Shown here: one piece after another, positions 1,608 through 27,545 of the stretch | Position numbering within the stretch: position 1 is the first letter of the stretch | How the letters are laid out: each line of letters opens with the position of its first letter | NCBI GenBank assembly: GCA_903830945.1 | Contig: CAIKVT010000069.1 | Coordinates: 1-64,000 of the forward strand | DNA: 64,000 bases | DNA from: an uncultured Elusimicrobia bacterium | GTDB taxonomy: Bacteria; Elusimicrobiota; Elusimicrobia; UBA1565; UBA9628 | Reading direction: 5' to 3' | Position numbers and translations under genes: made by a program | Notes under the pieces: model-generated | The model's input: the letters and a program-made list of their open reading frames with translations, nothing else | Told to the model about the DNA's origin: nothing | The model's database searches: none

Positions 1608-2159
1608 ATGACCACCCCCACTTCGATCCAAGAACGCGGCTGGTACGTCGTGCATTGTCAGTCGGGCTGGGAGGACCGGGTCAAGAACGCCATCGAGACC
1701 AAAGTCGCCCTAGAAAGCCTTTCCGACAAGGTCTACTCCGTGCTCATCCCCACCGAGGATGTGATTGAAGTTAAAAAAAACCGCAAAAAAATCTCCAAGC
1801 GCAAGTTCTTCCCGGGCTATGTGCTCATCGACATGAAGGTCGATGAGATCACCTACTGGATGATCAAGGGCATCCCGGGAGTCAGCCACTTCCTGGGCGA
1901 GCCGCGGCCCACGCCTCTGCCCGAGGCCGAAATCCAGGGCATCATCGAGCTCTCCGCCTCAACGGCCGGCGGCAAACCTCGGCCCGCAGTCCAGTTCGAG
2001 AAGGGCGAGGGCATCCGCATCACCGAGGGGCCTTTCCGGCACTTCACGGGAGTCGTCGAAGACATCAACGAGGCCAAGGCCAAAATCAAGGCCATGGTCA
2101 CCATTTTCGGGCGCCCCACGCCGGTTGAACTCGATTTCCTGCAGGTCGAGAAGCTGTAG
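1608..2159 (+). CDS. nusG: Transcription termination/antitermination protein NusG
   Basis: A 183-residue protein with an N-terminal NGN domain (WYVVHCQSGWEDRVKNAIE, then RKFFPGYVLIDM) and a C-terminal KOW domain (GEGIRITEGPFRHFTGVVEDI). NusG binds the RNA polymerase clamp, suppresses pausing and links polymerase to Rho or to ribosomal S10. The length is normal. It is tightly coupled to secE upstream. Its TAG stop shares its last base with the GTG start of the next small ORF. Confidence 0.97.
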   Translation: MTTPTSIQERGWYVVHCQSGWEDRVKNAIETKVALESLSDKVYSVLIPTEDVIEVKKNRKKISKRKFFPGYVLIDMKVDEITYWMIKGIPGVSHFLGEPRPTPLPEAEIQGIIELSASTAGGKPRPAVQFEKGEGIRITEGPFRHFTGVVEDINEAKAKIKAMVTIFGRPTPVELDFLQVEKL

Positions 2160-2482
2160 TGGTCGAAGCGGAGATCATGCCTCCGGGACACGAGCCCCGG
2201 GTCCATATCGCGGGGGCCCGCGCGCCGGGCTGGTTCGGTGCCGCGCTAGCGCTGCTGACCGTGGCGGCGGCCTTCACCGTGGGCTTCATGGCACTCTTCG
2301 GCCGAACCTTAGTCGCGGCCCTCGTCGCCTCCTTGGCCTGGTCATGGCTGTTCAGCCCTGAGTTCACGGCCTGGGTGTTCGGGGCTCAGCGCGTCGTTTT
2401 CTGGAAGATCCTGGTCCTATTCCTCGCGGTGGACCTGATCGCGAGGCTGTTCCTAAGGAGAAACTTATGGCCAAGAAAGTAA
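2159..2482 (+). CDS. Small membrane protein of unknown function between nusG and rplK
   Basis: A 107-codon frame fills the gap between nusG and rplK. It starts with GTG sharing a base with the nusG stop; ATG at 2177 is an alternative start preceded by GGAG. It ends 16 nt inside rplK, so the rplK Shine-Dalgarno lies in its last codons. Two or three hydrophobic helices are visible (about residues 27-47, 52-66 and 79-99), the last followed by a basic tail [13 protein letters not shown] do not recognise a family. Tight overlap on both sides suggests a translated, coupled gene rather than chance. nusG and rplK are normally adjacent in bacteria, so this is an unusual insertion. Confidence 0.6.
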
Positions 2483-2895
2483 AGACTCAGATCAAGTTGC
2501 AGATCCCGGCGGGCGCCGCGAACCCCGCCCCGCCCGTGGGCCCGGCATTAGGCCAGCACGGCGTCAACATCATGGACTTCTGCAAGCAGTTCAATGACCG
2601 CTCCCGCAGCATGGAAGCGGGTATGACCATCCCCGTGGTCATCACGGTGTACGAAGACCGATCCTTCTCCTTCATCACCAAGATGCCGCCGGTGGCCTCA
2701 CTTCTCAAACGCGCGGCCGGCCTGGCCAAGGCCTCTGGGGAGCCCAACCGCAATAAGGTAGGGAAGATCACTCTCAAGCAGGCCGAAGAGATCGCGACGC
2801 AGAAGATGCCGGACCTCAACACCAAGGACCTCAAGGGTGCCCTGCAGATGGTCAAGGGCACGGCGCGGTCCATGGGCATCGAGATCGCGGAGTAG
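2467..2895 (+). CDS. rplK: 50S ribosomal protein L11 (uL11)
   Basis: A 142-residue protein of normal length. The N-terminal domain carries the proline-rich stretch [22 protein letters not shown] that contacts translation factors and thiostrepton-type antibiotics. The C-terminal domain ([15 protein letters not shown], then [10 protein letters not shown]) binds the GTPase-centre 23S rRNA. AAGGAG at 2455-2460 precedes the ATG with good spacing. rplA follows after 57 nt. Confidence 0.97.
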
Positions 2896-2952
2896 TACCA
2901 GACGCAAGACCGAGCTCCGCCCAGCGGAGCGCCAACAGGTCAAGGAGGCGGT

Positions 2953-3636
2953 ATGGGAAAGCGAATCATAAATATCACCAAGGACGTTGATTTCACGAAA
3001 CAGTACACTCTTGACGATGCCGTGGCGCTTGTAAAAAAGTGCGCCACCGCCAAATTCGACGAGACGGTGGAGCTGCACGTGCGCCTGGGCGTCGACCCTA
3101 AGCAGGCCGACCAGCAGGTGCGCGGCACTGTAGGCTTGCCCCATGGTTTAGGAAAATCAAAAAAGGTCGCAGTCGTCACCCAAGGGGAGAAACAGAAGGA
3201 TGCCACGGCAGCCGGCGCGGACATCGTGGGCGGCGCAGAGCTCGTAGACCAGATATCCAAGGGGTTCCTGGATTTTGAAATCCTGGTGGCCACCCCGGAC
3301 ATGATGAAGGACCTCTCCAAGCTGGGAAAGGTCCTGGGGCCCAAGGGCCTCATGCCAAACCCCAAAAGCGGCACCGTGACCATGGATGTGGGCAAAACCG
3401 TCAAGGAACTCAAGGCCGGTCGGGTTGAATATAAGGTAGACGACTACGGCATCATACACGTCCCGGTAGGCAAGGCATCGTTTGAGCCCACGCGGCTCTC
3501 AGGCAACATCCAGGCCGTGATGGAAGTTATCATCAAGGCCAAGCCCGCCTCTTCTAAGGGCATCTACCTCATGAGCGTGACCCTGTCCTCGAGCATGGGG
3601 CCTGGAGTCCGACTCGACACGTCGCAAAAGTTCTAG
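2953..3636 (+). CDS. rplA: 50S ribosomal protein L1 (uL1)
   Basis: A 227-residue L1 protein, which forms the L1 stalk near the E site and usually represses its own operon by binding an rRNA-like site in the mRNA. Diagnostic segments are GTVGLPHGLGKSKKVAV, LGPKGLMPNPKSGTVT and the C-terminal block with SVTLSSSMGPGVRLD. AAGGAGG sits 5-11 nt before the ATG. The operon ends here; rplJ and rplL, its usual followers, are absent and a long hairpin and a convergent gene follow. Confidence 0.97.
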   Translation: MGKRIINITKDVDFTKQYTLDDAVALVKKCATAKFDETVELHVRLGVDPKQADQQVRGTVGLPHGLGKSKKVAVVTQGEKQKDATAAGADIVGGAELVDQISKGFLDFEILVATPDMMKDLSKLGKVLGPKGLMPNPKSGTVTMDVGKTVKELKAGRVEYKVDDYGIIHVPVGKASFEPTRLSGNIQAVMEVIIKAKPASSKGIYLMSVTLSSSMGPGVRLDTSQKF

Positions 3637-3654
3637 CGCACCACAAGTCGGATC

Positions 3655-3700
3655 AAGGACTACGGCCCGGACAGGGAACCCTGTCTGGGCCGTAGTCCTT
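3655..3700. terminator. Long perfect hairpin after rplA, possible terminator
   Basis: Positions 3655-3674 and 3681-3700 form a 20-bp inverted repeat with a single G-U pair and a 6-nt loop (GGAACC). It lies 18 nt after the rplA stop, between convergent operons. There is no T-run on either side, so it is not a textbook intrinsic terminator. It may be a transcription barrier, an RNA-processing site or an mRNA 3'-end stabiliser. Confidence 0.5.
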
Positions 3701-3772
3701 CCATCTTCCAATAGACCCAGTCAGCATCACTCCCGGATAGGTCTTAAAACGTTCGGCGGGATCGGCCTATGC

Positions 3773-14816: not shown

Positions 14817-15605
14817 CTATCGTGCCGGCTGAGCCGGACCCGACATCGACGTCTTCCCGTATTCCTTAAGCCCCTCGGTGAAGGACTGCGGCAGCCCCAG
14901 CGCCTGACCGGTGTCGGAAAGCAGTGCCCGCAACACTCCATCTTCAACGAGGAGGTCCGCAGACGCGGCCAGCAGCTCGCGCGGAGTCTCCTTGAGCGCC
15001 TCCTTAAAAAAAGCCTGCACCGCCGGATCGCGAGCATACTTGGCAGTCAACTCCGGAAAGCTCCTAGCCCCGGCAAGGCCGCGCAGAAATCTGACAGGGT
15101 CGCGGTCGACCATGTAGTCATCGTTGAGCTTCTTAAGGTCGGGCTTACTCATCCAGTCCTGACCGTACTGGTGGATGGCCGGATAGCGCTCGGTGTACTC
15201 GATAGCCAAAGCTTGGGCCTTGGCCTCGCTCCGGCGCACCGCCTCCGTAAAAACGGAGACGGCGGGCTGCGGATTGCCCGGGCGCGCTGCCTGAGGCGCA
15301 GCCCCAGATACGGGACGGGGATTCTCCCCTCCCGTTAGGGATGTCGCGCTCGGGACCGGCGCCTGGAGCGCGGCTCCGGCATGGATCATGTCGAGACTGG
15401 ATCGCGGGTCGGCCGAAGGGGACGGCGCGGGCTGAGGGCTCTGCCGGAGCGCTAGCGAGTCAAGGCCAAAATTCACGGTCACGGGCTTCTCCTTCTGGGA
15501 GAGCTGCCAGAGCATCACCCCAACAGCCGATCCGGCCACGGCCAAAGCGGCCAAAAGCGCCGCAGCCGCGGCCGTGCGTCTCGGGGGTCGCTGTCCTTCG
15601 TCCAT
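14817..15605 (-). CDS. Membrane-anchored protein of unknown function, partner of the giant gene
   Basis: A 262-residue protein with a short basic N-terminus, one membrane helix (about residues 12-34) and a Pro/Ala/Ser-rich linker to about residue 115. A predicted helical domain follows (EAVRRSEAKAQALAIEYTER to the end). The topology is probably N-in with the domain in the periplasm. It starts 8 nt after the giant gene, so the two are very likely cotranscribed and may act together. I do not recognise a family. The convergent pgl gene ends on the adjacent base. Confidence 0.75.
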   Translation of the reverse strand: MDEGQRPPRRTAAAAALLAALAVAGSAVGVMLWQLSQKEKPVTVNFGLDSLALRQSPQPAPSPSADPRSSLDMIHAGAALQAPVPSATSLTGGENPRPVSGAAPQAARPGNPQPAVSVFTEAVRRSEAKAQALAIEYTERYPAIHQYGQDWMSKPDLKKLNDDYMVDRDPVRFLRGLAGARSFPELTAKYARDPAVQAFFKEALKETPRELLAASADLLVEDGVLRALLSDTGQALGLPQSFTEGLKEYGKTSMSGPAQPAR

Positions 15606-15613
15606 AAAGCCCC

Positions 15614-18600
15614 TCAGTATACCGGAGGGATGATCTGCATGACCGCGTTGAGCTCCCCGTCCGGCAGCCGTGCGCCCCGTCCGTTGAGCTCGGCCAGCTT
15701 GGCGACGACCTCGGCGATGTCCTCGCTGCGCGAGGCGTCGATGCGCACGTAATGCTGACGTGAACCGTCTAGGGCCTTGACCTGTTCAGCCGCCGGGCCG
15801 ATACCAATGAAGGTGACGTCGATGCCGGCCTCGGCGCATTGAGCCAGGACTTGCGCCATCTCCGGGGTCGACGTCCACTGGCCGCCCGGGCCCTTGACGA
15901 TGGACTTCCCGTCGGCGCCGTCAGTGACGAGCAGCAGGCTCTTGACCTTGGCGCCGCGGGCTTGACGCGAGCCCATGAAATCCGAAAGCTTGGCGTTGAG
16001 CGCTCTGACGATGTCGGTTCCGCCTTCCCCGGCGGCATTAGCCATGTTCACGAGGCGATCAGCGTTCTCCTTCCGGCTTAAGCGCGCGTCCATGGCGACA
16101 TAAGTGTGCGGCGCGTCAGAGAAAGAGGCAAGGTCGTAGAAGAAGTGCTCAGGAGCGGCCTCGCGCAACTTCCAGAAGTTCTCCCCCACGGCGCCGATGG
16201 TATAGGCCAACTGCTGCTTGATGTCCCCCATGCTGCCGCTGAAGTCGAGCAAGACGGAGATGGCGGTCGTGCTCATCTTCTCCTGTTTCCTACGCTTGAC
16301 GAAAGGCTTAGGCTTGCGCTGGATCAAGGCCTGCGGGTCGATCTCCAAGCCTGAGCGCACCGGAATTTTCTCGATGCGCACGGCGTCGCGCAAGGCGCGC
16401 AGCATGCGGTCGAAGACGAACTGCGTGTCTCCTTTTCCACTAGAAAAAAGCGGCGCCAGCTCGTCGTTGAGCCGGGCATCTTGAACAAGCTCCTGGTCGA
16501 TCCCGTCGACAGCTGCCTGGATGCGCTGCGAGTCCTCGGCCGCACCGCCGCCGGAGTCAGAGCCGGCGCTGGCTTGGCCGCGGCTGGAGTGGGGAGGCTT
16601 GAGTCCCTGCTGCTTCATGGCCTGGCGCGTCCTTTCGGCCATACGCTGCTCGTTCTCTCTATAGGTCTTGGGGGACGGCAAGCCGTCATCGTAGCGCGGG
16701 ACGTGCGCATCATTAGCCAGAGGCAAGAGGTCCATGTTCATCGGGTCACCCCCGCCGCCCAGGTCCACGCGCATCCAGCCAAGGTTCGGCACGAGCACCT
16801 CCGCCCAGGCGTGGATCTCGGATTCGACGTAACGCGCCGGGATGCCGAGGCCCAGGGCCGTGCGCGCGAAAGCGAAGGCTCGATGGCGGCAGACGCCGCA
16901 CTTCGAAAGCATGATGTCGAGATAGCGCGAACCCCCATGCCCGACAATGCCGTCCTTTTTGAGCGAAAAATCTCGGAAGTATGCGGCGAGCGCATGCAGG
17001 ACGACACGATAATCGGTCTCGTCGTCCTTGAGCCCGATCTGGCCCAGGGCTTGCCGGACTTCCGCCGGGATCTGCGCCGGATAATGGAACGGCAGTCCCG
17101 CGGGCAAAGGACTCCCGAAAGAAACGGCCGGGACAGCGACGCGGTAGCGCAGCTCAACGCTAGCGGTCTGCCGTGCCCGAACGTAAAAGTTGTCCGCTGA
17201 GTCGCGCGCCAGCTCAAGGCCGGGATCGGTCGGCCGGCCGGCGGCGTCGAAAGCCGCCAGATCTATAAAGCGCATGCCCGGCCCCGTTGCGGGCAAGCCT
17301 TGCCACTGGGCGCCGACGCTCATCGCCACGCGCCCTGCGAAGAGGTCGTGCGTGGCCTTAAGCTCGCGCGCCAGAGCGTCCGCCTGGCCGGGAGACAGAC
17401 GCGGGACATCCTCGGCCGTCAGATTACCGAGGCGCGTCCATTCCTCGGAGGCCTCGTCGTAGACGTCGTAGGCGGAAAGCCGCGTGTACGGAAAAAGCTC
17501 GGGGATGAAGATGCCGCGCGCGGCCATGGCATCACCGCGCGGGCCATGGGGGGAAGAGTTCTCGTCGAAGGTCTCTTGCCCGTCTCTCATGAGGTCATCG
17601 GTGCCCTTGCGGCCTTCGGGCGCATGACCGGCCAACGCCGGCGCCGGCGTTACGACGGAGACCGCGCCTGCCGCGGCGGCGGGCTGCTCCCAGACGCCAT
17701 AGAACGAGGCCACGACCTTTTCGATCTCCTGAGACGAGGCCAGTCCCACCCACGCGGTGATGGCATGGTCCAGCAGACGCGGGTCGATAGTCTGACGCCC
17801 CGAGTAGCGCGTCGGGTTGAAAGTCATGACGATCTGCACGCCCTCGCCGACCATGAACGCCGGCTCCTCGGGAAAGATCGGGTGGACCCAGCGCTCCCCG
17901 CGCAGCAGCGGCTCGAGTGTCCAGAGAACCCAGGGCGCCAAATTGGCCTCGTCGATGTCCATGATGACCCGGCCTTCACGCAGCAGGCGATAAAAATCCT
18001 TGACGCGCTTACGGAAGGCCCCTGAGGCTTCTTGCTCGAAGTCGATCGTGAGGTCGCTGGCCTCGCTGCCGCCGTGGACCTGATATTTATAGAACCGCCG
18101 GCCAGTCAGCCGGGCCCAGAGCGCGCAGATGCTCGTCTTGACTGCCCCGGTCTCGCCAGCGAAAACCGTAGCCATCCCCAAGTTGTCGGCGCGCGCCAGT
18201 ATGCCCAGCGCGCGCTCGATTTGAGGACTCAGGAAGACCCGGCTGTCGCGCGCGGCCGGCCGCAGTCCTTCGGCTTGCATGCTCTCCCGCACGGGCACCC
18301 CGCCGGCGGCCACAAGCCGACCGTCGAGGGTGCCATCGTCAGTGGCCAGCGCAACAGGCGCATCCGCGACGCGGAATCCGAGCACAGCCGCCAACGCCTG
18401 CTCAAAGCGCTGCGCATCGGGGATCTCGCCGTCGGACGCGTCCCCGGGCAACCTTGCCGCGACCAAGCGCCGGGCCTCTCTCGCGAAGGTCTCGGTAGCC
18501 AAGCTCCGGTAGTCTTCGACGAGAGAGCGATGGGCTTTTGGCTCCGCCCAAGGATCTCGGCGCGGGTCATAGCCTTCCGCCGCCACGCGGTCGAACAACG

Positions 18601-21600
18601 CGGCCCAGCGCGGGTCTTCATTGCGCGCCTGCACGACGGCCTGCGCCAAGGCGAAGAAGATGCCCGCATGATATTGGTACGCGCCGCGATTGACCCAGCG
18701 ACGTTCGGCATCGAAACGGGACAAAGCCGCGCGCAGTTCGGCCGTCCAGTGGGCATCAAGAGTGTCGAGGGCGTAGCGCGAACGCAGCACGCGTTCGAAC
18801 TCCGAGGGTTGGCCCGCGACCTCGGGCAGGACCAGGTCCCGCGGGATTCCGATCTTGACCCAGCGGCTAAAGAACGCAGCGGAGAAATCGCGCGTGGAAT
18901 CGGCCGGCATCTCGGCGAGCAGGTGCAGATGGGGCGGCCGGTAGAGCCTCGTGGCTCGCCCGTCGATATCCTCAAGATCGATGAAGCCGTCCTCCAAAAG
19001 CCCGTTGAGGGCCGTGCGGATCTCCTCCTTCCACTGGTCCACGTTGCGCAACCACAGCACGACCGGTTCGGACATTTTTCCGTCGCGGCCTAGCTGCTCG
19101 AGCTCGGCGCGAGTCAGCAAGTAGCGCGTCAGCTTCCCGCGGACCTGCCGCGAGCGCGCAGCACCCGCCGGACGCTCGCCCAGATGAGGCAGCCAGCCGC
19201 CCAGGAGCTCCAGCTCGCCTTGCTCGGGCGCGGCATCGACAGGCTCCAAGCGTGCGCCCATGGCCTCCGCCGCCGCCCGCGCCATATCCGAGGTCCGCGC
19301 CCCGGCCTCGGCGATATAGAGTACGGGCTCGCCTTGACTCAACAGGTCCTGCGTCAAGCCTGCCGCCCACGCTTCGCGCTCCGTGGCGGCCCGCGGAAAA
19401 CGCGCGGCCAGTTCCTCGCGCAAGCCATCCGCGCCGATGGGCCGCCCAAGGACCTTTTCAATCCGCTCTCGCACGTAGGCGCGCTCCTGCAAATGTGAGA
19501 ACATCGCTTCATAAACCGCGCGCAACGCGCGCTCGAAAGCTTTGTCCGCATCGCCGCGGGGATCCTCGCGCAATGCGCGCCGCAGATGAGCAGCCACGCG
19601 GCGCACTTCCCGCTTAGAGAGATAGTAGCGCTCTTTATTGTCCCTGCCGATCTGTCTGCCGATGGCGGGCTTCAACAGATGATGCAGAGCGGCCGTGGCC
19701 TTGCCCCAGCGCTCCACGTCCCGCGGATCGGCCGGAGCGCGCTGGCCCAGAAAATGCTTAAAGAGCCGCTCGAGCGTGGCAGGCTCGTCGTCCTCCGGCA
19801 CTTCGATCGTATGGACGTTGGCGGTGACCTCGCTCTTTGGCTGCAGACGCCCAGGCGTGTCCTCGGGCCTGTTGTTGGTGACCACGAGGCCGAAGTCCTT
19901 ATGTACCGGCAGACGCAGCGCGGATCCTGGGAACTCCTGAAGGACGATCTCACGGTCGCCGTTGGCCAATCCCGAGAACCAACTCAACAGTTCGCGGCCG
20001 CGCTCACCGATGGCGCCCTCGTCCAGCACGAAGATTCCGCCGTTGACGATCATGTCGAGCAACGGCAGCTTAAAACGCTGCCGGCCCTGGGCATCTCGGA
20101 CCGGGCGCGCCGTCAGCACGAGCCGGCCGTCGGGGTCCTCGCGGAAAGCGCCCAGCAGATCCGAAAGCTCGCGCTCGCCGTTCATCTGAAACACGAAGCG
20201 TGGCAGGCCCAGCAGCAGGCCCAGCTCGCGCGCGATCACGGTCTTCCCGGCTCCGGGGCTGCCGATGAAGTTCACGGCGCGGCCGCGGGACCAATCCTCA
20301 AGAGCCAAGCCTTCCAAGCGCTCCAAGGTTTCGCCCTCCATCAGGAAATCGTCCTCAGAGAGCGGCCGCAGGGCTTCGGCATAGGGGTCCTTGAGGTCGG
20401 CAAGCAACAGCTCGGCGAGGTCCCGGCGCCGCCCGGAGACGCTGGCCAGCTCCCGCGGCCGTTGGCCGAGCTGTTCCAGAGGCCGCACAAGTTCGTGACG
20501 GGTCGCCAGCCAACGGCCCTTAAAATTGAGCCAGACGCGGCCGTCTTCGTCCGCCGCGAAGTAGAAAGGCTTGCCTCCGTAGCGCGGCTTAAACGAAAAA
20601 GAAGCCGACTCCATGACGGCGTGTACGGCCTCGGACTCGGCTACGACAGCAACACGACCTGCCAGCTGACTGCGAGACACGACACGGCCATCCATGAGCA
20701 CTACTGCGGCGTCGTCCTGGACGATGAACTTTTGAAGAGAATAAGCTTGCAGACCGCGAACGCCGCCGACCAGCAGCATCCGGCCGTCGGGTGTGAACGC
20801 CACGGACCGGATAAACCCACCATGCGCAATCGCGGAACCGGCCTGGACGTACTGCTTCTGGCGAGGGTCGAAGGAGAAAACACGGGCCGCTTCCTTGTTG
20901 CCCGTGGCCAGGGTGAGGCCGTCGGACGTGAGGTCCACAGACTCGACCAGAGCGTCATGCTTGATCGCGGAGCCGACATGAATGTACTTGTTTTGACTGG
21001 AGTCCGAACGGAAGACTAAAACGGCGTGATAGCTGCCCAGAGCGAAAGTCTGACCGTCAGGCGTGATTGCCGAGGAATGGGCCGAGGCGTCGCAATCAAG
21101 CGCGGGGCCGACCTGAACGTATCTATCTTGTTCCAAGCGGACGACGCGGACTGTCGGGGAATTTCTGCCCATCAGCAAGGTCCGTCCATCAGGCGTGATC
21201 GCCAAGGAACCGCCGTCGAGAGCGGGGCCGACCTGGACATATTGATTTTGTTCCAAGCGATAGACGCGAGTTTTATTATCTTCACTGCTGATGGCGATGG
21301 TGCGACCGTCGGGCGTTACTGCCACATCGACATAACCATTGTTGGCGAACGCGGGACCGGCCTGGATGAACTGGCCTTGGCCCAAGTGAAAGATGCGGAT
21401 ATTTTTATCGTCGCTGTTCGTGACAAAGGTCTGCCCGTCGGATGTGATCCTTAAGAACAGAACCCTGCCCGGATGATCGAACGCGGAGCTGATCTGGATG
21501 TACCTATTTTGGCCTGGGCCCAGACGGAAAATGAGGATTTTATCATCAAGAGTTGAGATGATGATGGTGCGACCGTCGGGCGTGATCGCAGTGAGGCGGA

Positions 21601-24600
21601 CCTGAGACACAGGGAAATCCTGAGGCAGCAGGGCCAATGCCTGGCCGACGTCGAACTGACGCAATTCAGCGGCGGGCTTCTCTTGCCAGGGCAGGCGCGC
21701 GGCCTGGGTCTCGAGCACATGGCGCAGCGCGTCCAGGGCCTTAGCGCGGTCAGCGGGCGTCACGGCGATGGCAAAGTCGGCCTGAGCCTGCGACATAGCT
21801 TGGGCCCCAGGCCGATCGGGCTCGGTCAAGGAAACGATGGGGCCTGCCAGTTGGCTGCGCGGCATAGCGCGGCCATCCATGAGCACAGCAGTGGCGTCGT
21901 CCTGGATGATGAACTCTTTTAGCGCATAGATTTGCAGGCCACGATCGCCGCCGACCAGCAGCATCCTGCCGTCGGACGCGAGCGCCAGGGAAGTGATCGC
22001 ATCGCCGTATTCGAACGCGGCCCCGGCCTGAACGTACTTGTTTTGGCTGGAGTCCAAGTGGAATAGGCGGACTTTTTTATCAGGACTGCCTGTGGCCAAA
22101 GTGTGGCCGTCGGGCGCAATCGCCACGAAAGCGACCACGCCGCCGTCGAACGCGGGGCCGACCTGGATCGATTGATTCTGCTCTATGCGGAAGACACGGA
22201 CTTGATAATCATCGCTGAGCGTAACGAGTGTGTGGCCGTCGGGTGTGATCGCCAGGGACCTGACCGCAGCACCAAGATCGAGCCCCGGGCCGACCTGGAT
22301 CGCCTGGTTTTGCTCTATACGGAAGACGCGGAATTTCCCATCTTTGCTGCCCGTGACGAGAGTGTGGCCGTCAGCGGTGAGCGCCTCGGAAATGACCCAG
22401 CGGTCATGATCCAGCGCGGGGCCCACCTGGACGTACTGGGTGGGCTCCAAGCGGAAGACACGGGCTTTATTATCCTCGCTGCCCGTGACGAAGGTTTGAC
22501 CATCAGGCGCAATCGCCATTGACCTGACCACACCGTCATGATCGAGCGGAGGTCCGAACTGGACGTACTGGTTTTTCTCCAAACGGAAGACGCGGGCTTT
22601 CTTATCATAGCTTCCCACGATGAGGGTGCGGCCGTCGGCTGTAAGCGCCATGGCAATGACTAGGAATTCGTGGTCGAGTGCTGGGCCGACCTGCACATAC
22701 TGGTCTTGGCTAAGGGCCAAGTGGAAGACGCGGACTTTCCGATCAGAGCTGCCAATAATGAGGGTTTGACCGTCAGGCGTGATCGCCGCGCAGATGACAC
22801 CAGCTGCCGGGAAGTCCTGGGGCAGCAGGGCCAAAGCCCGGCCGATGTCGAGCGGCCGGAGATCGGCGGCAGACTTCTCTTGCCAGGGCAAGCGCGCGGC
22901 CTGGGCCTCGAGAACGTGGCGCAGCGCATCCAAAGCCTTGGCGCGGTCAGCGGGCGTCGCGACGATGGCGAAGTCAGCCCGGGCCTGTTCAAGGGCGGGC
23001 AACTCTCCCGCCTCAACGCCGGCGGGCCGGCGCCGGCCCAACCGCAAGGAGCCGTAGCCTCGGGTCACCAGTTCGAGCCCCTGGGACAGCGCCAAGGCTT
23101 GCCGGCGCTGCGGCGAAGCCCAGGAGGCGAGGTTGCCCAGGGCCGCCGTCTCCAGCCGGCGGACGAGCTCTGGGACGCCCAGGCCGGCATCGACGGCCGC
23201 GAGCGTGGCCACGGTTGCGGCCCGGAGAAACCAGAGGAAAGAGGACTGCGACAGCAGCCCCGCGGGCGCGTTGGGCTCGGCCTGGCGCAGGCGCGGATAG
23301 AGGCCGGCGGCCCAACGGCCTAGGAATCCGGCCAACTGCTCGGGTAAGGCCGACAAGGCTTGGCCCAGCTCTTGGGCCACAGAGCGCTCGGCCCAGACAT
23401 CGTCTTCGCCCTCAGCCAGTTCCACAAAGCGCGAGCGCTCCGCGGGCGACCAGGAGAGCGTCGAGTCCTGCCGGCTGACGAAAAGGACGCGGGCGTTGGT
23501 GGGCATGGACAACGGCTGCCGGGCGCCCTTGGGGTAGAGCAGTCCATCCTGCAGGAACTCATTGATGGCCACGATCTGCTCGGGCTTGATATTGTGGGCG
23601 TTATCGAAGACATAGACGATGGTCTTGTCCGGAACGGCGTTGGCGCGCTCGATCATCCGGGCAAAGATGCCCGGCCCGAAGGTCAAGCCCGTCCCACTCT
23701 CCGCCGGCACGAGGCCGCCTTCCATCTGGAAACGGTCGGTCTCCTCGGTAGCTTGGATCAACGACAATTCGATCGCGGGGTCTTGCGCGAGACGGCGCAG
23801 CGCCTCGCGCGCGTCGGCCTGCGCCGGCAGGCGCAGGTGAGCGGGACGAGCCTTGACCAGCAGCTGGTCAGCCAAAGCCGCCTGGGCCTGCAGCGGCGGC
23901 CATGACCCGAGCGCCGCGGCCAACGCTTGGCGCAGCGCCTCTATCTGCTTGGGCTGCGTCAGCCAGCCGCCCAAGTGCACGCCAGCCGCCTCTCCCAGGG
24001 CCGCCTCCTCGCTGCGGCCCGCGGCCAGGCCCGCCAGGACGTCTTCCGACATGCGCCGCAGTTCGCGCATCGACAAAACCCGGCCGCCGAGGTCTTTCCA
24101 GGACTGCGTCAGCGCCGCCGCCTCCCAGTAAGCCTCGGCCAATCGGCGCGCCAACCGCTGCCGCAAGCCCTGATCCAAGAGGCCCCGGCCCAGCACGCGT
24201 CCGCCGGAGGTCCAGTCGTGCTTGAGGAACATCTCCGCGTCGCGCCGCAGCGTGTCGATCTCTCTGCGCTTGAGCGCGGCGCTGGCATCCGCCGTGACTA
24301 ATGGCTCAACGCTCAAGATCGGGACTCGCTCCTTAAGGACATCCGACAGGGCCCCGCGCGCCGCGTAGTCACCTTCGGGGTTGGTGTCCACGACGATCAG
24401 CGTCTTGGGATGTACGCGGATCGTAGGCACGGGAAGCCCTTCGGGAGTGGGGACCTCGGTCAGCCGGATCGTGCGGTAGCCCTGGGCGTCGGGCGCGGCC
24501 TCGACGATCTGCTGCAGCCACCAGCCCAGAGACGCTTTCTCGTTATGGTCGAGCAATGTATTGAGCTCACTGAGTGCCGCCACGCCGCCCTGCTCGAGCC

Positions 24601-26878
24601 GCTGCTTCAACGGCGTATCGCCGCGGAAATGGTAGCGACCCGCTTCGTCCTGCTCGAATCCCCCGATCCAATCGGACAGCTGCGTGTCCATGCTGACCGG
24701 GTTGGAGAAGAATGGTCGCCCGAGCAGGCGCGCATAACCGCGCGCCGCGAACGTCTTGCCAAGACCCGTCGGCCCTTCCAGGCGCAGCAACGGCCCCGCG
24801 CGCGCCTGGACCTGAGCCATCATGGACAGCATGCGCACGGTCTGAAAATCGAGAATGAGCCCAGTCTTCAAGTAGATCTCGTCATGGAGGGTCTGCGGTG
24901 TGACCCCGAAGAACTCATCGGACAATGAGATCTCGGCGCCGGGCAGAGATAGGACAGGCCGGCCGCGATCTTGACGCAGGCGGACCGAATCTAGATAATT
25001 TCCAGCGTCCACGCCGCGCGGCCATTGCAAGCCGGGCGGCGCCTGGTAAGAAGGATCGCTCGGCAGCTCACGGACCGCGACACGGTCATAAAACGAATCA
25101 TCCTCCAGGCCGACGCCCTTGCGGATCGTGAAGAAGAACTGCAGGTTATCCGGAAGAAAGATAAGGCCCAGGTCCGGGTGCGTGATCTCACGGTCTTGCA
25201 GCGCCGACTGCAGAAGAGTGCGCACGCCGGGCTCAAGGGCTTCGACGTTCTTGATCACGAGCAGCGATCGACGCGCGGGGCGGCCGCTGAGCCGAGCCTC
25301 CTCGCTCTCGGCTTGCGCCGCGCGGATTTGACGCGTAAGCTCGCCCAAGCCGAAGACGAGCCGGCCGTCTTCAAGGGGAACCTCGTGGCCCAGCAGTTGC
25401 CGGTCCTCGATGAAAGGATGGCTGTAGATGACATCCAGAGAAGCGCCGGAAGCACGCGCCTGACGGCGCAGGACAGCCATAAACTCGACATCGCTGCCGG
25501 GCGCCTCCTGGAACAGGGCTGGATCATTGGTCAGCAGGGCTCGCGCCACGCGCCGCTCCATCGCCGATTCGCCGACCGGAATGCCGAGCAAGCGCGACTC
25601 GAGGGGTTCGCTTTGCAGTTGCCTCCACACGGGCTCGCCGATGAACTCGGCGAATCGGCTCATGAGGCGGCTCGCCTCGTTAGGTTTACCCTTCTCGAAT
25701 AGGTTCCAACCGGAGCCGGACGCCAAGACGTCGCCGTAGAAGCTTTGCGCCGCCAGGGCCAACGCCTCGGCCAGCGGGGCCGCGCTGCCCTGGGCGCGCC
25801 GCCGCGCCGTCAGGCTCAAAACGGCTTTTGAGAAACGCTCCTGGTCCCGCTGGGAAAAGAAAGCCTGAGCCAGCTCTGGGTGAGCAGCCAGCAGATCGCG
25901 CTTGAAGGCGGTCTGGGCTTGCACGAGGCGATTGAATTGGGCCAGGGTGAGACCTAATATCTGGAGCGACTGGCGGGTCTCGGGAGGCAGCGACGCGTCC
26001 GTCTCGGCCAGCACAGCCGCCCGCGCGGAGGACGACCATCGGCCATGAAGCCATCTTCCGATGAGATCAGTCAGCAGCGCTTTGATGTCCGCTACGGCTT
26101 GAGCGATGATCCCAACCGCTCTTGATACGGCGGCTCCCGCGGGAGCGTCCTGCGACAGGAGCCGAGGGGCCGGGATTCCCGACATCCCGCTGCCGCTAGG
26201 CTCAGACGCGGCCGGAACTGCCGGCGCTTTTTGCAGCCGCCACCGGAAAGGGCCGGCGGAGCTTCCCACGCCGCCCGCCGGCTGGACGGCCAGATCATCG
26301 TTTTTATCGCTCCATGCGGCCCTGGCCCGTTCGATAGGCTCAGCCAGGATGGCCTGGACCGCGGACGCAACGGCATCGCGGCTGCGCTCAAGATCTTGCC
26401 GACGACCTGGAACCAGGGCCACGAGAACAGGGAAGTCCCTGAATTCCTCTTGCGTTTGCGAAAGCGACTGGCGCGCCGTCGCGGCAGGCATGGACGAAAA
26501 AGCAGCCGTTCGGGCGACAAGGCTCGCGGCGTAGCTCTCAGCCGAGTCTTGAATCAGCGCGGCTTGCCGCTGGACCGACCAACCCGGAACTGCCACGGCC
26601 TGCGGATCCAAGCCCGTGCGCCCCATGACGCGGACGAAACCTTCCATCTGCTCCGGCGTGCTGAGGCCGAAAGGCTCCAGGAACTGGATCGTCGCCGGCG
26701 ACGGAAAGGTTGCGAAAAAAGTACGCCAGGCTTGCACCCTACTGGAAGCGCCTTGGCCGGGCAGACTGGCGGCATAAACAATGGGGCCGGAAGTCCCGGG
26801 GGCAGCGGCCACCAGACTCAGCGCCAAAGACAGCGCGAGCAACTTCTTAAGCTGAAAGAGAACGGCCCGCATGGTCAT
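15614..26878 (-). CDS. Giant secreted midasin-like protein: six AAA modules, two WD propellers, transglutaminase and VWA
   Basis: A protein of about 3754 residues. The start ATG (26878) is chosen because it begins a signal peptide (residues 1 to about 36, ending VYA-AS); the frame is open further upstream but overlaps the next gene. Order: helical region 40-450; AAA-0 without P-loop (about 450-630, Walker B-like LLVIKNVEAL near 542); AAA-1 with Walker A GPTGLGKT 702-709; AAA-2 without P-loop (YVFDNAHN, D1092); two seven-bladed WD-like propellers (about 1360-1650 and 1759-2053); AAA-3 with GSPGAGKT 2206-2213 and LDE 2285-2287; AAA-4 without P-loop (about 2500-2690); AAA-5 with altered Walker A GETGAVKT 2908-2915 and intact D2976-E2977. 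Then a transglutaminase-like domain with C3330, H3356 and D3372, and a C-terminal VWA domain with MIDAS D3545-x-S-x-S, T3621 and D3653. The modules look like AAA_5 (dynein/midasin/MoxR) domains. Bacterial MoxR ATPases normally pair with separate VWA and transglutaminase proteins. Function unknown. Confidence 0.93.
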   Translation of the reverse strand: MTMRAVLFQLKKLLALSLALSLVAAAPGTSGPIVYAASLPGQGASSRVQAWRTFFATFPSPATIQFLEPFGLSTPEQMEGFVRVMGRTGLDPQAVAVPGWSVQRQAALIQDSAESYAASLVARTAAFSSMPAATARQSLSQTQEEFRDFPVLVALVPGRRQDLERSRDAVASAVQAILAEPIERARAAWSDKNDDLAVQPAGGVGSSAGPFRWRLQKAPAVPAASEPSGSGMSGIPAPRLLSQDAPAGAAVSRAVGIIAQAVADIKALLTDLIGRWLHGRWSSSARAAVLAETDASLPPETRQSLQILGLTLAQFNRLVQAQTAFKRDLLAAHPELAQAFFSQRDQERFSKAVLSLTARRRAQGSAAPLAEALALAAQSFYGDVLASGSGWNLFEKGKPNEASRLMSRFAEFIGEPVWRQLQSEPLESRLLGIPVGESAMERRVARALLTNDPALFQEAPGSDVEFMAVLRRQARASGASLDVIYSHPFIEDRQLLGHEVPLEDGRLVFGLGELTRQIRAAQAESEEARLSGRPARRSLLVIKNVEALEPGVRTLLQSALQDREITHPDLGLIFLPDNLQFFFTIRKGVGLEDDSFYDRVAVRELPSDPSYQAPPGLQWPRGVDAGNYLDSVRLRQDRGRPVLSLPGAEISLSDEFFGVTPQTLHDEIYLKTGLILDFQTVRMLSMMAQVQARAGPLLRLEGPTGLGKTFAARGYARLLGRPFFSNPVSMDTQLSDWIGGFEQDEAGRYHFRGDTPLKQRLEQGGVAALSELNTLLDHNEKASLGWWLQQIVEAAPDAQGYRTIRLTEVPTPEGLPVPTIRVHPKTLIVVDTNPEGDYAARGALSDVLKERVPILSVEPLVTADASAALKRREIDTLRRDAEMFLKHDWTSGGRVLGRGLLDQGLRQRLARRLAEAYWEAAALTQSWKDLGGRVLSMRELRRMSEDVLAGLAAGRSEEAALGEAAGVHLGGWLTQPKQIEALRQALAAALGSWPPLQAQAALADQLLVKARPAHLRLPAQADAREALRRLAQDPAIELSLIQATEETDRFQMEGGLVPAESGTGLTFGPGIFARMIERANAVPDKTIVYVFDNAHNIKPEQIVAINEFLQDGLLYPKGARQPLSMPTNARVLFVSRQDSTLSWSPAERSRFVELAEGEDDVWAERSVAQELGQALSALPEQLAGFLGRWAAGLYPRLRQAEPNAPAGLLSQSSFLWFLRAATVATLAAVDAGLGVPELVRRLETAALGNLASWASPQRRQALALSQGLELVTRGYGSLRLGRRRPAGVEAGELPALEQARADFAIVATPADRAKALDALRHVLEAQAARLPWQEKSAADLRPLDIGRALALLPQDFPAAGVICAAITPDGQTLIIGSSDRKVRVFHLALSQDQYVQVGPALDHEFLVIAMALTADGRTLIVGSYDKKARVFRLEKNQYVQFGPPLDHDGVVRSMAIAPDGQTFVTGSEDNKARVFRLEPTQYVQVGPALDHDRWVISEALTADGHTLVTGSKDGKFRVFRIEQNQAIQVGPGLDLGAAVRSLAITPDGHTLVTLSDDYQVRVFRIEQNQSIQVGPAFDGGVVAFVAIAPDGHTLATGSPDKKVRLFHLDSSQNKYVQAGAAFEYGDAITSLALASDGRMLLVGGDRGLQIYALKEFIIQDDATAVLMDGRAMPRSQLAGPIVSLTEPDRPGAQAMSQAQADFAIAVTPADRAKALDALRHVLETQAARLPWQEKPAAELRQFDVGQALALLPQDFPVSQVRLTAITPDGRTIIISTLDDKILIFRLGPGQNRYIQISSAFDHPGRVLFLRITSDGQTFVTNSDDKNIRIFHLGQGQFIQAGPAFANNGYVDVAVTPDGRTIAISSEDNKTRVYRLEQNQYVQVGPALDGGSLAITPDGRTLLMGRNSPTVRVVRLEQDRYVQVGPALDCDASAHSSAITPDGQTFALGSYHAVLVFRSDSSQNKYIHVGSAIKHDALVESVDLTSDGLTLATGNKEAARVFSFDPRQKQYVQAGSAIAHGGFIRSVAFTPDGRMLLVGGVRGLQAYSLQKFIVQDDAAVVLMDGRVVSRSQLAGRVAVVAESEAVHAVMESASFSFKPRYGGKPFYFAADEDGRVWLNFKGRWLATRHELVRPLEQLGQRPRELASVSGRRRDLAELLLADLKDPYAEALRPLSEDDFLMEGETLERLEGLALEDWSRGRAVNFIGSPGAGKTVIARELGLLLGLPRFVFQMNGERELSDLLGAFREDPDGRLVLTARPVRDAQGRQRFKLPLLDMIVNGGIFVLDEGAIGERGRELLSWFSGLANGDREIVLQEFPGSALRLPVHKDFGLVVTNNRPEDTPGRLQPKSEVTANVHTIEVPEDDEPATLERLFKHFLGQRAPADPRDVERWGKATAALHHLLKPAIGRQIGRDNKERYYLSKREVRRVAAHLRRALREDPRGDADKAFERALRAVYEAMFSHLQERAYVRERIEKVLGRPIGADGLREELAARFPRAATEREAWAAGLTQDLLSQGEPVLYIAEAGARTSDMARAAAEAMGARLEPVDAAPEQGELELLGGWLPHLGERPAGAARSRQVRGKLTRYLLTRAELEQLGRDGKMSEPVVLWLRNVDQWKEEIRTALNGLLEDGFIDLEDIDGRATRLYRPPHLHLLAEMPADSTRDFSAAFFSRWVKIGIPRDLVLPEVAGQPSEFERVLRSRYALDTLDAHWTAELRAALSRFDAERRWVNRGAYQYHAGIFFALAQAVVQARNEDPRWAALFDRVAAEGYDPRRDPWAEPKAHRSLVEDYRSLATETFAREARRLVAARLPGDASDGEIPDAQRFEQALAAVLGFRVADAPVALATDDGTLDGRLVAAGGVPVRESMQAEGLRPAARDSRVFLSPQIERALGILARADNLGMATVFAGETGAVKTSICALWARLTGRRFYKYQVHGGSEASDLTIDFEQEASGAFRKRVKDFYRLLREGRVIMDIDEANLAPWVLWTLEPLLRGERWVHPIFPEEPAFMVGEGVQIVMTFNPTRYSGRQTIDPRLLDHAITAWVGLASSQEIEKVVASFYGVWEQPAAAAGAVSVVTPAPALAGHAPEGRKGTDDLMRDGQETFDENSSPHGPRGDAMAARGIFIPELFPYTRLSAYDVYDEASEEWTRLGNLTAEDVPRLSPGQADALARELKATHDLFAGRVAMSVGAQWQGLPATGPGMRFIDLAAFDAAGRPTDPGLELARDSADNFYVRARQTASVELRYRVAVPAVSFGSPLPAGLPFHYPAQIPAEVRQALGQIGLKDDETDYRVVLHALAAYFRDFSLKKDGIVGHGGSRYLDIMLSKCGVCRHRAFAFARTALGLGIPARYVESEIHAWAEVLVPNLGWMRVDLGGGGDPMNMDLLPLANDAHVPRYDDGLPSPKTYRENEQRMAERTRQAMKQQGLKPPHSSRGQASAGSDSGGGAAEDSQRIQAAVDGIDQELVQDARLNDELAPLFSSGKGDTQFVFDRMLRALRDAVRIEKIPVRSGLEIDPQALIQRKPKPFVKRRKQEKMSTTAISVLLDFSGSMGDIKQQLAYTIGAVGENFWKLREAAPEHFFYDLASFSDAPHTYVAMDARLSRKENADRLVNMANAAGEGGTDIVRALNAKLSDFMGSRQARGAKVKSLLLVTDGADGKSIVKGPGGQWTSTPEMAQVLAQCAEAGIDVTFIGIGPAAEQVKALDGSRQHYVRIDASRSEDIAEVVAKLAELNGRGARLPDGELNAVMQIIPPVY
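20630..21790 (-). repeat. Second copy of duplicated helix-propeller unit in the giant gene
   Basis: Copy 2 starts at QAQADFAIAVTPADRAKALD (residue 1697) and runs through seven propeller blades of the form xxxTPDGRTxxxGSxDxKxRVFRL to a closing IVQDDAAVVLMDGR block. It aligns end to end with copy 1 at an offset of 1197 nt (399 codons). The retained blade-by-blade similarity indicates an in-frame tandem duplication. Confidence 0.85.
21791..22987 (-). repeat. First copy of duplicated helix-propeller unit in the giant gene
   Basis: Copy 1 starts at QARADFAIVATPADRAKALD (residue 1298), has about 60 residues of helix ending ALLPQDFP, then seven blades, then a closing IIQDDATAVLMDGR block. The helical cap and closing block are nearly identical to those of copy 2, so the whole 399-residue unit was duplicated, not just blades. 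Confidence 0.85.
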
Positions 26879-26987: not shown

Positions 26988-27545
26988 CTAGAGCCAGGGA
27001 AGCAGACGCGCGCTTTCCGCGTCGCTGAGAAAACGCCACTGCCCTGACGGAACATCCAAGACCAGGTCGCCGATCGCGGTACGCTTGAGCTCGAGCACCT
27101 TGAGCGGCGTGCCGAATTTTGGATCTTTGAGCGCACCAAAAATTCGCCGAATGTGGCGGTTCTTGCCCTCGTCGAGCACGACCCGGACCTTGGTCTTGGG
27201 ACCGACCCGGCCGACCACCTCCACGCCCCGCGCTCGACAGAAGCCTTCGGACGTCTCCATGCCGGAGAGCGCCTGGCAGACGTGCTCCGGCGTCACCAGG
27301 CCGCGGACCCAGACCTCGTAGGTCTTAAGCGTGCCGCCGGGCCGCGTGAGTCCGTCGAGGACCTTGCCCTCCCGGGCGAAGAGCAGAAGTCCCCGGGATG
27401 CGAGGTCTAGCCGGCCCGCCGGCATCCAGCCATCGACACGCGCCCAATCCGGCAAGAGGTCATAGACGGTCTTACGGCCCTTCTCGTCCAAGCGGGTAAC
27501 CACGTAGCCCTTGGGCTTGTGCAACATCAGGAGCCGGGAGACCAT
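26988..27545 (-). CDS. Pseudouridine synthase, RsuA/RluB/RluE family
   Basis: A 185-residue enzyme that isomerises a specific uridine in rRNA. It starts with the conserved LMLHKPKGYVVTR strand. The catalytic aspartate is D47 in AGRLDLASRGLLLF, and the C-terminal motif LDEGKNRHIRRIFGAL is typical. It lacks the N-terminal S4 domain of RsuA and RluB and matches the short RluE-like form in size, but the target cannot be named from sequence alone. An extended -10 (TGC-TATAAA) ends 7 nt before the ATG with no Shine-Dalgarno, so the mRNA may be leaderless. Confidence 0.9.
   Translation of the reverse strand: MVSRLLMLHKPKGYVVTRLDEKGRKTVYDLLPDWARVDGWMPAGRLDLASRGLLLFAREGKVLDGLTRPGGTLKTYEVWVRGLVTPEHVCQALSGMETSEGFCRARGVEVVGRVGPKTKVRVVLDEGKNRHIRRIFGALKDPKFGTPLKVLELKRTAIGDLVLDVPSGQWRFLSDAESARLLPWL

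Follow-up and report, generated by a model that had tools for sequence, protein, structure and literature searches.

Where would an exported AAA ring find its ATP? The question is posed by a conserved export signal, a cysteine-poor ring and kept ATP sites, which occur together in one giant gene of an uncultured Elusimicrobia bacterium. The gene encodes the protein P0001 and lies in the window analysed here, which is the whole stretch of 64,000 nucleotides at positions 1 to 64,000 of contig CAIKVT010000069.1 (assembly GCA_903830945.1). The best explanation of P0001 as a whole, and one that appears probable, is an AAA+ ring in a single chain, of the dynein-midasin/MoxR kind and exported by Sec. 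Guided by its signal, the chain would leave the cytoplasm, and the signal would probably be removed by a cut after residue 36. An inactive and an ATP-binding AAA module form a pair that occurs three times, and the six modules most likely make up a single closed ring. Its three ATP sites would be composite, with nucleotide held by the even modules and the odd modules as their partners. Two propellers would project from mid-chain, and the transglutaminase-like and VWA domains, the latter with a metal ion-dependent adhesion site (MIDAS), would form a C-terminal arm, probably gripping a client as in midasin. The ring may then pull or remodel the gripped client.

The export signal and the cysteine content

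The N-terminus of P0001 reads MTMRAVLFQLKK-LLALSLALSLVAAA-PGTSGPIVYA|AS, with MTMRAVLFQLKK as the basic n-region, LLALSLALSLVAAA as the hydrophobic h-region and the VYA|AS site after residue 36 (position 26771). It has the features of a type I Sec signal (basic n-region, hydrophobic h-region, small residues at -3/-1) under a simple self-made rule for n-, h- and c-regions, on which all signal calls here rest. The rule is passed by one of 356 internal Met positions in the four giant relatives and by 8 of 34 open reading frames (ORFs) in the window; most of these eight are plausible as envelope proteins, and the 34 include some dubious ORFs. The signal peptide on P0001 is real, and the initial annotation, which had pointed to an export signal on an ATPase, is confirmed in this and extended by relatives that carry signals too. 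The chain is apparently sent out of the cytoplasm, as predicted from its sequence, and the cleavage after residue 36 is a probable one; the signal peptidase I family is present in the genome itself (two matches).

The signal is conserved in two sets of homologues. Among 340 genomes of the phylum that were searched (designated by G-numbers), three besides that of the window have a ring gene readable from start to stop, G020 (4552 amino acids), G044 (5690) and G324 (6140), and all three proteins begin with a signal by the rule. The second set comes from the N-domain, which follows the signal. Its profile was built without the signal to avoid circularity, and gave 17 matches in 10 of the 340 genomes; six of these matches are the alignment's own sequences. 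Ten of the 11 further proteins have a start codon and a rule-passing signal directly upstream, and the eleventh, which has the weakest match (E 4.5e-4), is apparently an unrelated protein. When starts are picked by eye, the rule accepts 9 of 12 N-domain proteins, and the three misses have a start or a hydrophobic stretch just beyond its limits. The initial annotation had asked about homologues that begin downstream of the signal; this check of N-terminal conservation found the opposite, with signals kept in the relatives.

Cysteine tends to be avoided by exported proteins, and the AAA core of P0001 has one Cys in 1727 residues; the counts are 1/1717 in G020, 0/1780 in G044 and 9/1788 in G324. 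Soluble signal-less ORFs in 20-kb samples of the same four genomes contain 10.0, 9.7, 11.3 and 15.7 Cys per 1000, respectively, giving one-sided Fisher p values of 3.9e-6, 5.5e-6, 2.3e-8 and 1.6e-4 for the depletion. The background ORFs were picked by script and are uncurated, and signal-less ORFs with a strongly hydrophobic stretch were excluded from both groups. The G020 background is 2.2 per 1000 when taken from the few ORFs beside the ring gene, and 9.7 in the larger sample. Eight AAA_5-matching proteins of the window's own genome have 36 Cys in 3675 residues, and the signal-less ORFs of the window have 91 in 8704. Behind residue 35, 10 of the 12 N-domain proteins have at most 1.7 Cys per 1000, and the other two have 7.6 and 8.1. 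The near absence of Cys in the AAA core thus supports export independently of the signal.

AAA modules and ATP sites

Pfam finds AAA_5 three times in the ring protein, along with WD40-type propellers, a transglutaminase core and a VWA domain. Profile comparison relates the even modules to each other (98.0% for modules 2-4, 96.0% for 2-6 and 96.9% for 4-6) and the odd modules likewise (95.7% for 1-3 and 89.6% for 1-5, with just 14.4% for the pair 3-5). Every odd-even pair is at or below 5.3%, and pairs of a module with any of four control stretches are at or below 2.1%. The modules fall into two alternating classes, and the chain therefore contains, three times over, a P-loop-less module paired with a P-loop AAA module. 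The earlier count of three AAA modules holds for those with P-loops, but the total is six. By eye, the propeller units between modules 3 and 4 vary in number, with two in P0001, about four in G020 and five in G044, and each unit in these three proteins opens with a similar 'ALxQAQxDY' linker.

Sequence search of the PDB ranks midasin first for both ring halves, at 1.2e-11 and 5e-21, the latter with four matched stretches; searches with module 3 alone and with the VWA domain alone gave no matches. Structure models were made for residues 295-1330 and 2100-3080, the halves being folded separately from 4 and 3 sequences. Foldseek on the PDB places dynein motors first for both models (5.3e-12 and 5.2e-19), and the 50 matches listed per model are all dynein motors or dynein-bearing assemblies. 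In VIA-align, modules 4-5 superpose on dynein with Z 21.4 (4.3 Å over 437 residues) and on Schizosaccharomyces pombe Mdn1 with Z 17.1 (8.0 Å over 456 residues). The first model (295-1330) gives Z 17.7 with dynein (4.0 Å over 252 residues) and Z 15.1 with Mdn1 (16.1 Å over 451 residues).

Module 4 is canonical, module 2 has a Walker B 'SE' for 'DE', and module 6 has [VAL]KT for GKT. It is fair to say, as the initial annotation did, that two of the three P-loop modules are altered, but alterations of the same kind recur in all four relatives (the window protein, G020, G044 and G324). All four keep GxTG[LV]GKT, SE[LF]N and NP in module 2, GxxG[AG]GKT, DEG and TNN in module 4, and GxxGx[VAL]KT, IDEAN and NP with the following Arg in module 6. 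The odd modules keep signatures of their own (KN[VI]E, N.HN..PE and RN[VI]DQW), and their Arg residues would be suited as trans partners. The MIDAS motif is present in all four proteins, and the transglutaminase Cys-His-Asp in the window protein, G020 and G044.

Several points weigh against an exported ring that works on ATP. ATP is scarce outside the cytoplasm, and no bacterial AAA+ ring that is exported is known to us. Because Ala and Leu abound at this N-terminus, 2722 of 20000 shuffled versions of residues 2-70 satisfy the signal rule as well; statistics on the single sequence are therefore of little strength, and it is the relatives that carry the case for the signal. The structure models are of low confidence, with mean predicted local distance difference test scores of 59.0 and 54.7 and predicted template modelling scores of 0.38 and 0.37, and the halves were modelled apart, so that closure into one ring stands as a prediction. 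The transglutaminase catalytic region of G324 is changed, with Cys and His kept and the Asp position different, and the G324 AAA core is less cysteine-poor. To these are added the hydrophobic clusters of G044 and G324 and a topology score of G044, which are taken up below.

Alternatives for the site of action and the use of ATP

A sharper form of the exported ring, overlapping with it in probability, is that the ring is delivered into another cell, be it prey, host or competitor, and runs there on the target's ATP, the N-domain being the mark of delivered enzymes. The same signal and N-domain head a peptide deformylase protein in G218 (GxGxAAPQ, EGC and HEIDH intact), a protein with PPDK ATP-binding and PEP-mobile domains and HEAT repeats in G207 (PEP-mobile His intact), a Fic-domain protein in G020 (motif HPFINGNGRTAR intact), a GGDEF protein in G013, and WD40 repeats in G005 and G230. 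Intactness is read here from the deformylase, Fic and PEP-mobile motifs that we take to be those of the working enzymes. An exported deformylase or Fic protein would be most sensible in another cell's cytoplasm, and this location would also solve the ATP problem. The deformylase, Fic and PPDK-type proteins suggest, on their sequences, such action inside another cell; most N-domain proteins, however, have no recognised enzyme domain. A tentative proposal is thus an exported Elusimicrobia family that takes normally cytoplasmic enzymes into another cell, with P0001 as a single-chain AAA mechanoenzyme that would use the target's ATP. One publication describes Elusimicrobiota as rich in huge proteins without assigned function (PMC11573180), and another connects giant ORFs of Omnitrophota with predation (PMC10066038). 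Through the shared N-domain, all members of the exported set could be traced.

The AAA ring may also be exported and not turn over ATP, serving as a scaffold or a one-time nucleotide binder for the transglutaminase and VWA domains. Consistent with this, module 2 is without the Walker B Asp, module 6 is without the P-loop Gly before the Lys, three modules are without a P-loop, and ATP outside the cytoplasm is in short supply. Module 4 is canonical, however, and the three P-loop Lys-Thr pairs, the catalytic Glu of the even modules and the sensor 1 Asn are kept in all four proteins across a long divergence, which makes a scaffold rather unlikely. A ring that is a pseudoenzyme was likewise disfavoured on the conserved even-module motifs. 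With the ATP-site motifs kept in four of four, the loss of nucleotide use, one way out that the initial annotation had offered, is therefore not the simple reading.

Another way out was a membrane tether with the AAA part inside, for which N-terminal or further segments would have to turn the core inward. Two relatives, G044 and G324, contain hydrophobic clusters in the stretch that joins signal and core, and further ones after the VWA domain. In a crude topology score with the N-domain placed outside, G044 prefers the core inside (7.5 versus 5.3), while G324 prefers it outside (13.6 versus 10.1). Against a tether, the basic residues ahead of the hydrophobic stretch set an N-in/C-out orientation, which places the rest of the chain outside. 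Besides the signal, there are no transmembrane candidates in the window protein and none before the ring in G020, and export of the N-terminus of the window protein therefore exports its ring. The core is also depleted in cysteine in all four proteins, G044 most of all, so that the cysteine counts favour an outside location in G044 and G324 as well. A cytoplasmic ring on a membrane tether appears improbable. The initial annotation's third way out, an unusual energy source, is a possible one. The membrane segments behind the VWA domain in G044 and G324 show an E-E..R / F..H pattern, presumably like that of CPBP membrane proteases; Pfam gave no match on the flanking regions of these two proteins.

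The start codon of the ring gene is the ATG at 26878 on the minus strand, with a second ATG at 26872 and the first one further downstream at residue 78, within the conserved domain. The only in-frame starts upstream (ATG 27055, GTG 27136 and TTG 27139) all lie within the preceding pseudouridine-synthase gene (26988-27545), which an AT-rich stretch separates from ATG 26878. The G020 ring gene has an in-frame stop two codons ahead of its start, and the start codons that come next are a TTG within the hydrophobic stretch and, at frame codon 80 in the conserved N-domain, a GTG; the G020 start is therefore nearly forced. A misassigned start, with the true protein beginning downstream and in the cytoplasm, was the initial annotation's own alternative and agrees with the lack of a clear Shine-Dalgarno sequence before ATG 26878, but it is rejected as very unlikely on the G020 frame and the signals of N-domain relatives that were found without using the signal.

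Relatives, locus and known systems

A C-terminal query of 895 residues matched 8 of the 340 genomes at E <= 0.001. The G160 match, an 80-aa frame with a stop, was dropped as spurious, leaving seven genomes including that of the window, in three of which the gene is broken at contig ends. An N-terminal query matched 65 genomes, mostly with short P-loop matches in frames of about 800 aa. Scanning a collection of 84,980 named genomes yielded matches at three loci (JAHFCE010000005.1, MGUU01000006.1 and JACPSV010000205.1), all in Elusimicrobia metagenome-assembled genomes. No relative of the ring protein was found among 78 stretches of viral contigs or in the plasmids searched, and the phage matches are eight Gordonia records with 26% identity over 55%, to a single AAA protein. 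A second, divergent giant in G324 (G324:C27), its N-terminus cut by the contig end, has modules 1 to 6 matched at 20-33% identity and a midasin AAA lid match. Among the 340 genomes, one (G005) has the midasin-lid family PF17867; the match lies in a giant of another type (G005:C3), a multi-membrane protein with a 4934-aa frame, many hydrophobic segments and a signal-like start. The G005 giant has no blastp match to the ring protein at 1e-3, and PF17867 therefore gives no support.

An assembly chimera was rejected, as the ring gene lies inside a 222-kb contig and has full-length homologous frames in three other genomes. Eight bases downstream of the gene is an ORF of 262 aa with an N-terminal anchor (14817-15605). 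It was dropped as a co-transcribed partner: the family is widespread, occurring in 30 of 38 relatives with up to four matches per genome, and is missing in the ring-bearing G020. An open frame of 477 aa antisense to the ring gene (19586-21019, plus strand) is probably a by-product of GC-rich codon use.

Table 1. Features of the ring gene in the window
Feature	Position	Strand	Residues	Basis
Giant ring gene, protein P0001, 3754 aa	15614..26878	-		homologous open frames in G020, G044, G324
Sec-type signal peptide, putative cleavage after VYA	26771..26878	-	1-36	conserved in kind among relatives
N-domain	26129..26746	-	about 45-250	also in further proteins of the phylum that bear a signal
AAA module 1, no P-loop	24929..25606	-	about 425-650	profile match to modules 3 and 5
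AAA module 2 (GPTGLGKT; SELN; DTNP)	24179..24916	-	about 655-900	Pfam AAA_5, profile comparison
AAA module 3, no P-loop	23234..23821	-	about 1020-1215	profile, motif and structure comparison
Two WD40-type beta-propellers between AAA modules 3 and 4	20639..22846	-	about 1345-2080	Pfam
AAA module 4 (GSPGAGKT; VLDEG; TNN)	19799..20431	-	about 2150-2360	Pfam, profile, motifs, superposition
AAA module 5, no P-loop	18809..19471	-	about 2470-2690	profile, motifs, superposition
AAA module 6 (GETGAVKT; DIDEAN; FNP)	17609..18241	-	about 2880-3090	strongest midasin match; profile, motifs
Transglutaminase-like core, Cys-His-Asp	16763..16993	-	3296-3372	Pfam, motifs
VWA domain, intact MIDAS (DFSGS, T, D)	15770..16261	-	3540-3703	Pfam, motifs

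P0001 resembles midasin (Mdn1/Rea1) in being a single chain with six AAA modules and a C-terminal MIDAS VWA domain, and by sequence no PDB entry matches either ring half better than midasin. It differs in being bacterial, in having a signal peptide and propellers between modules 3 and 4, and in the strict alternation of P-loop and P-loop-less modules. Midasin has a very long linker with a D/E-rich part between the ring and the VWA domain; in P0001 a transglutaminase replaces it, and only about 450 residues, transglutaminase included, lie between module 6 and the VWA core. Midasin functions in the maturation of the large ribosomal subunit, and export would argue against such a role for the ring protein.

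The dynein heavy chain motor domain is likewise a single chain of six modules and gives the best fold matches. Dynein has a stalk with the microtubule-binding domain between modules 4 and 5, whereas P0001 has about 110 residues there and therefore no room for a stalk; unlike dynein, it also has VWA and transglutaminase domains and is predicted to be exported.

MoxR, NorQ and RavA form rings of separate subunits and have a separate VWA protein (NorD, ViaA or CoxE). They share with P0001 the AAA_5 type of AAA and a VWA partner, and NorQ is among its sequence and fold matches; the MoxR-VWA pairing is described in PMC7159879. In P0001 the six modules and the VWA domain are in one ORF, with no separate single-AAA subunits. 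MoxR-DUF58-TgpA clusters bring AAA, VWA and transglutaminase-like domains together in separate genes, with only the transglutaminase part periplasmic, while here they are in one chain, apparently exported as a whole. Torsins, too, are AAA+ proteins that a signal sequence takes out of the cytosol, but they are eukaryotic, consist of separate subunits and lie in the ER lumen, into which ATP is imported.

Searches of a literature collection from which most subscription papers were absent turned up no bacterial midasin-like or exported AAA ring, and to our knowledge single-chain six-AAA proteins are otherwise known only from the eukaryotic giants dynein, midasin and RNF213. Membership in the midasin or dynein family is not claimed for P0001, because some features that define them fail, and a ring that works like them is the best reading. 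As a bacterial chain of three inactive-active tandem repeats, it provides a comparison point for the origin of such rings.

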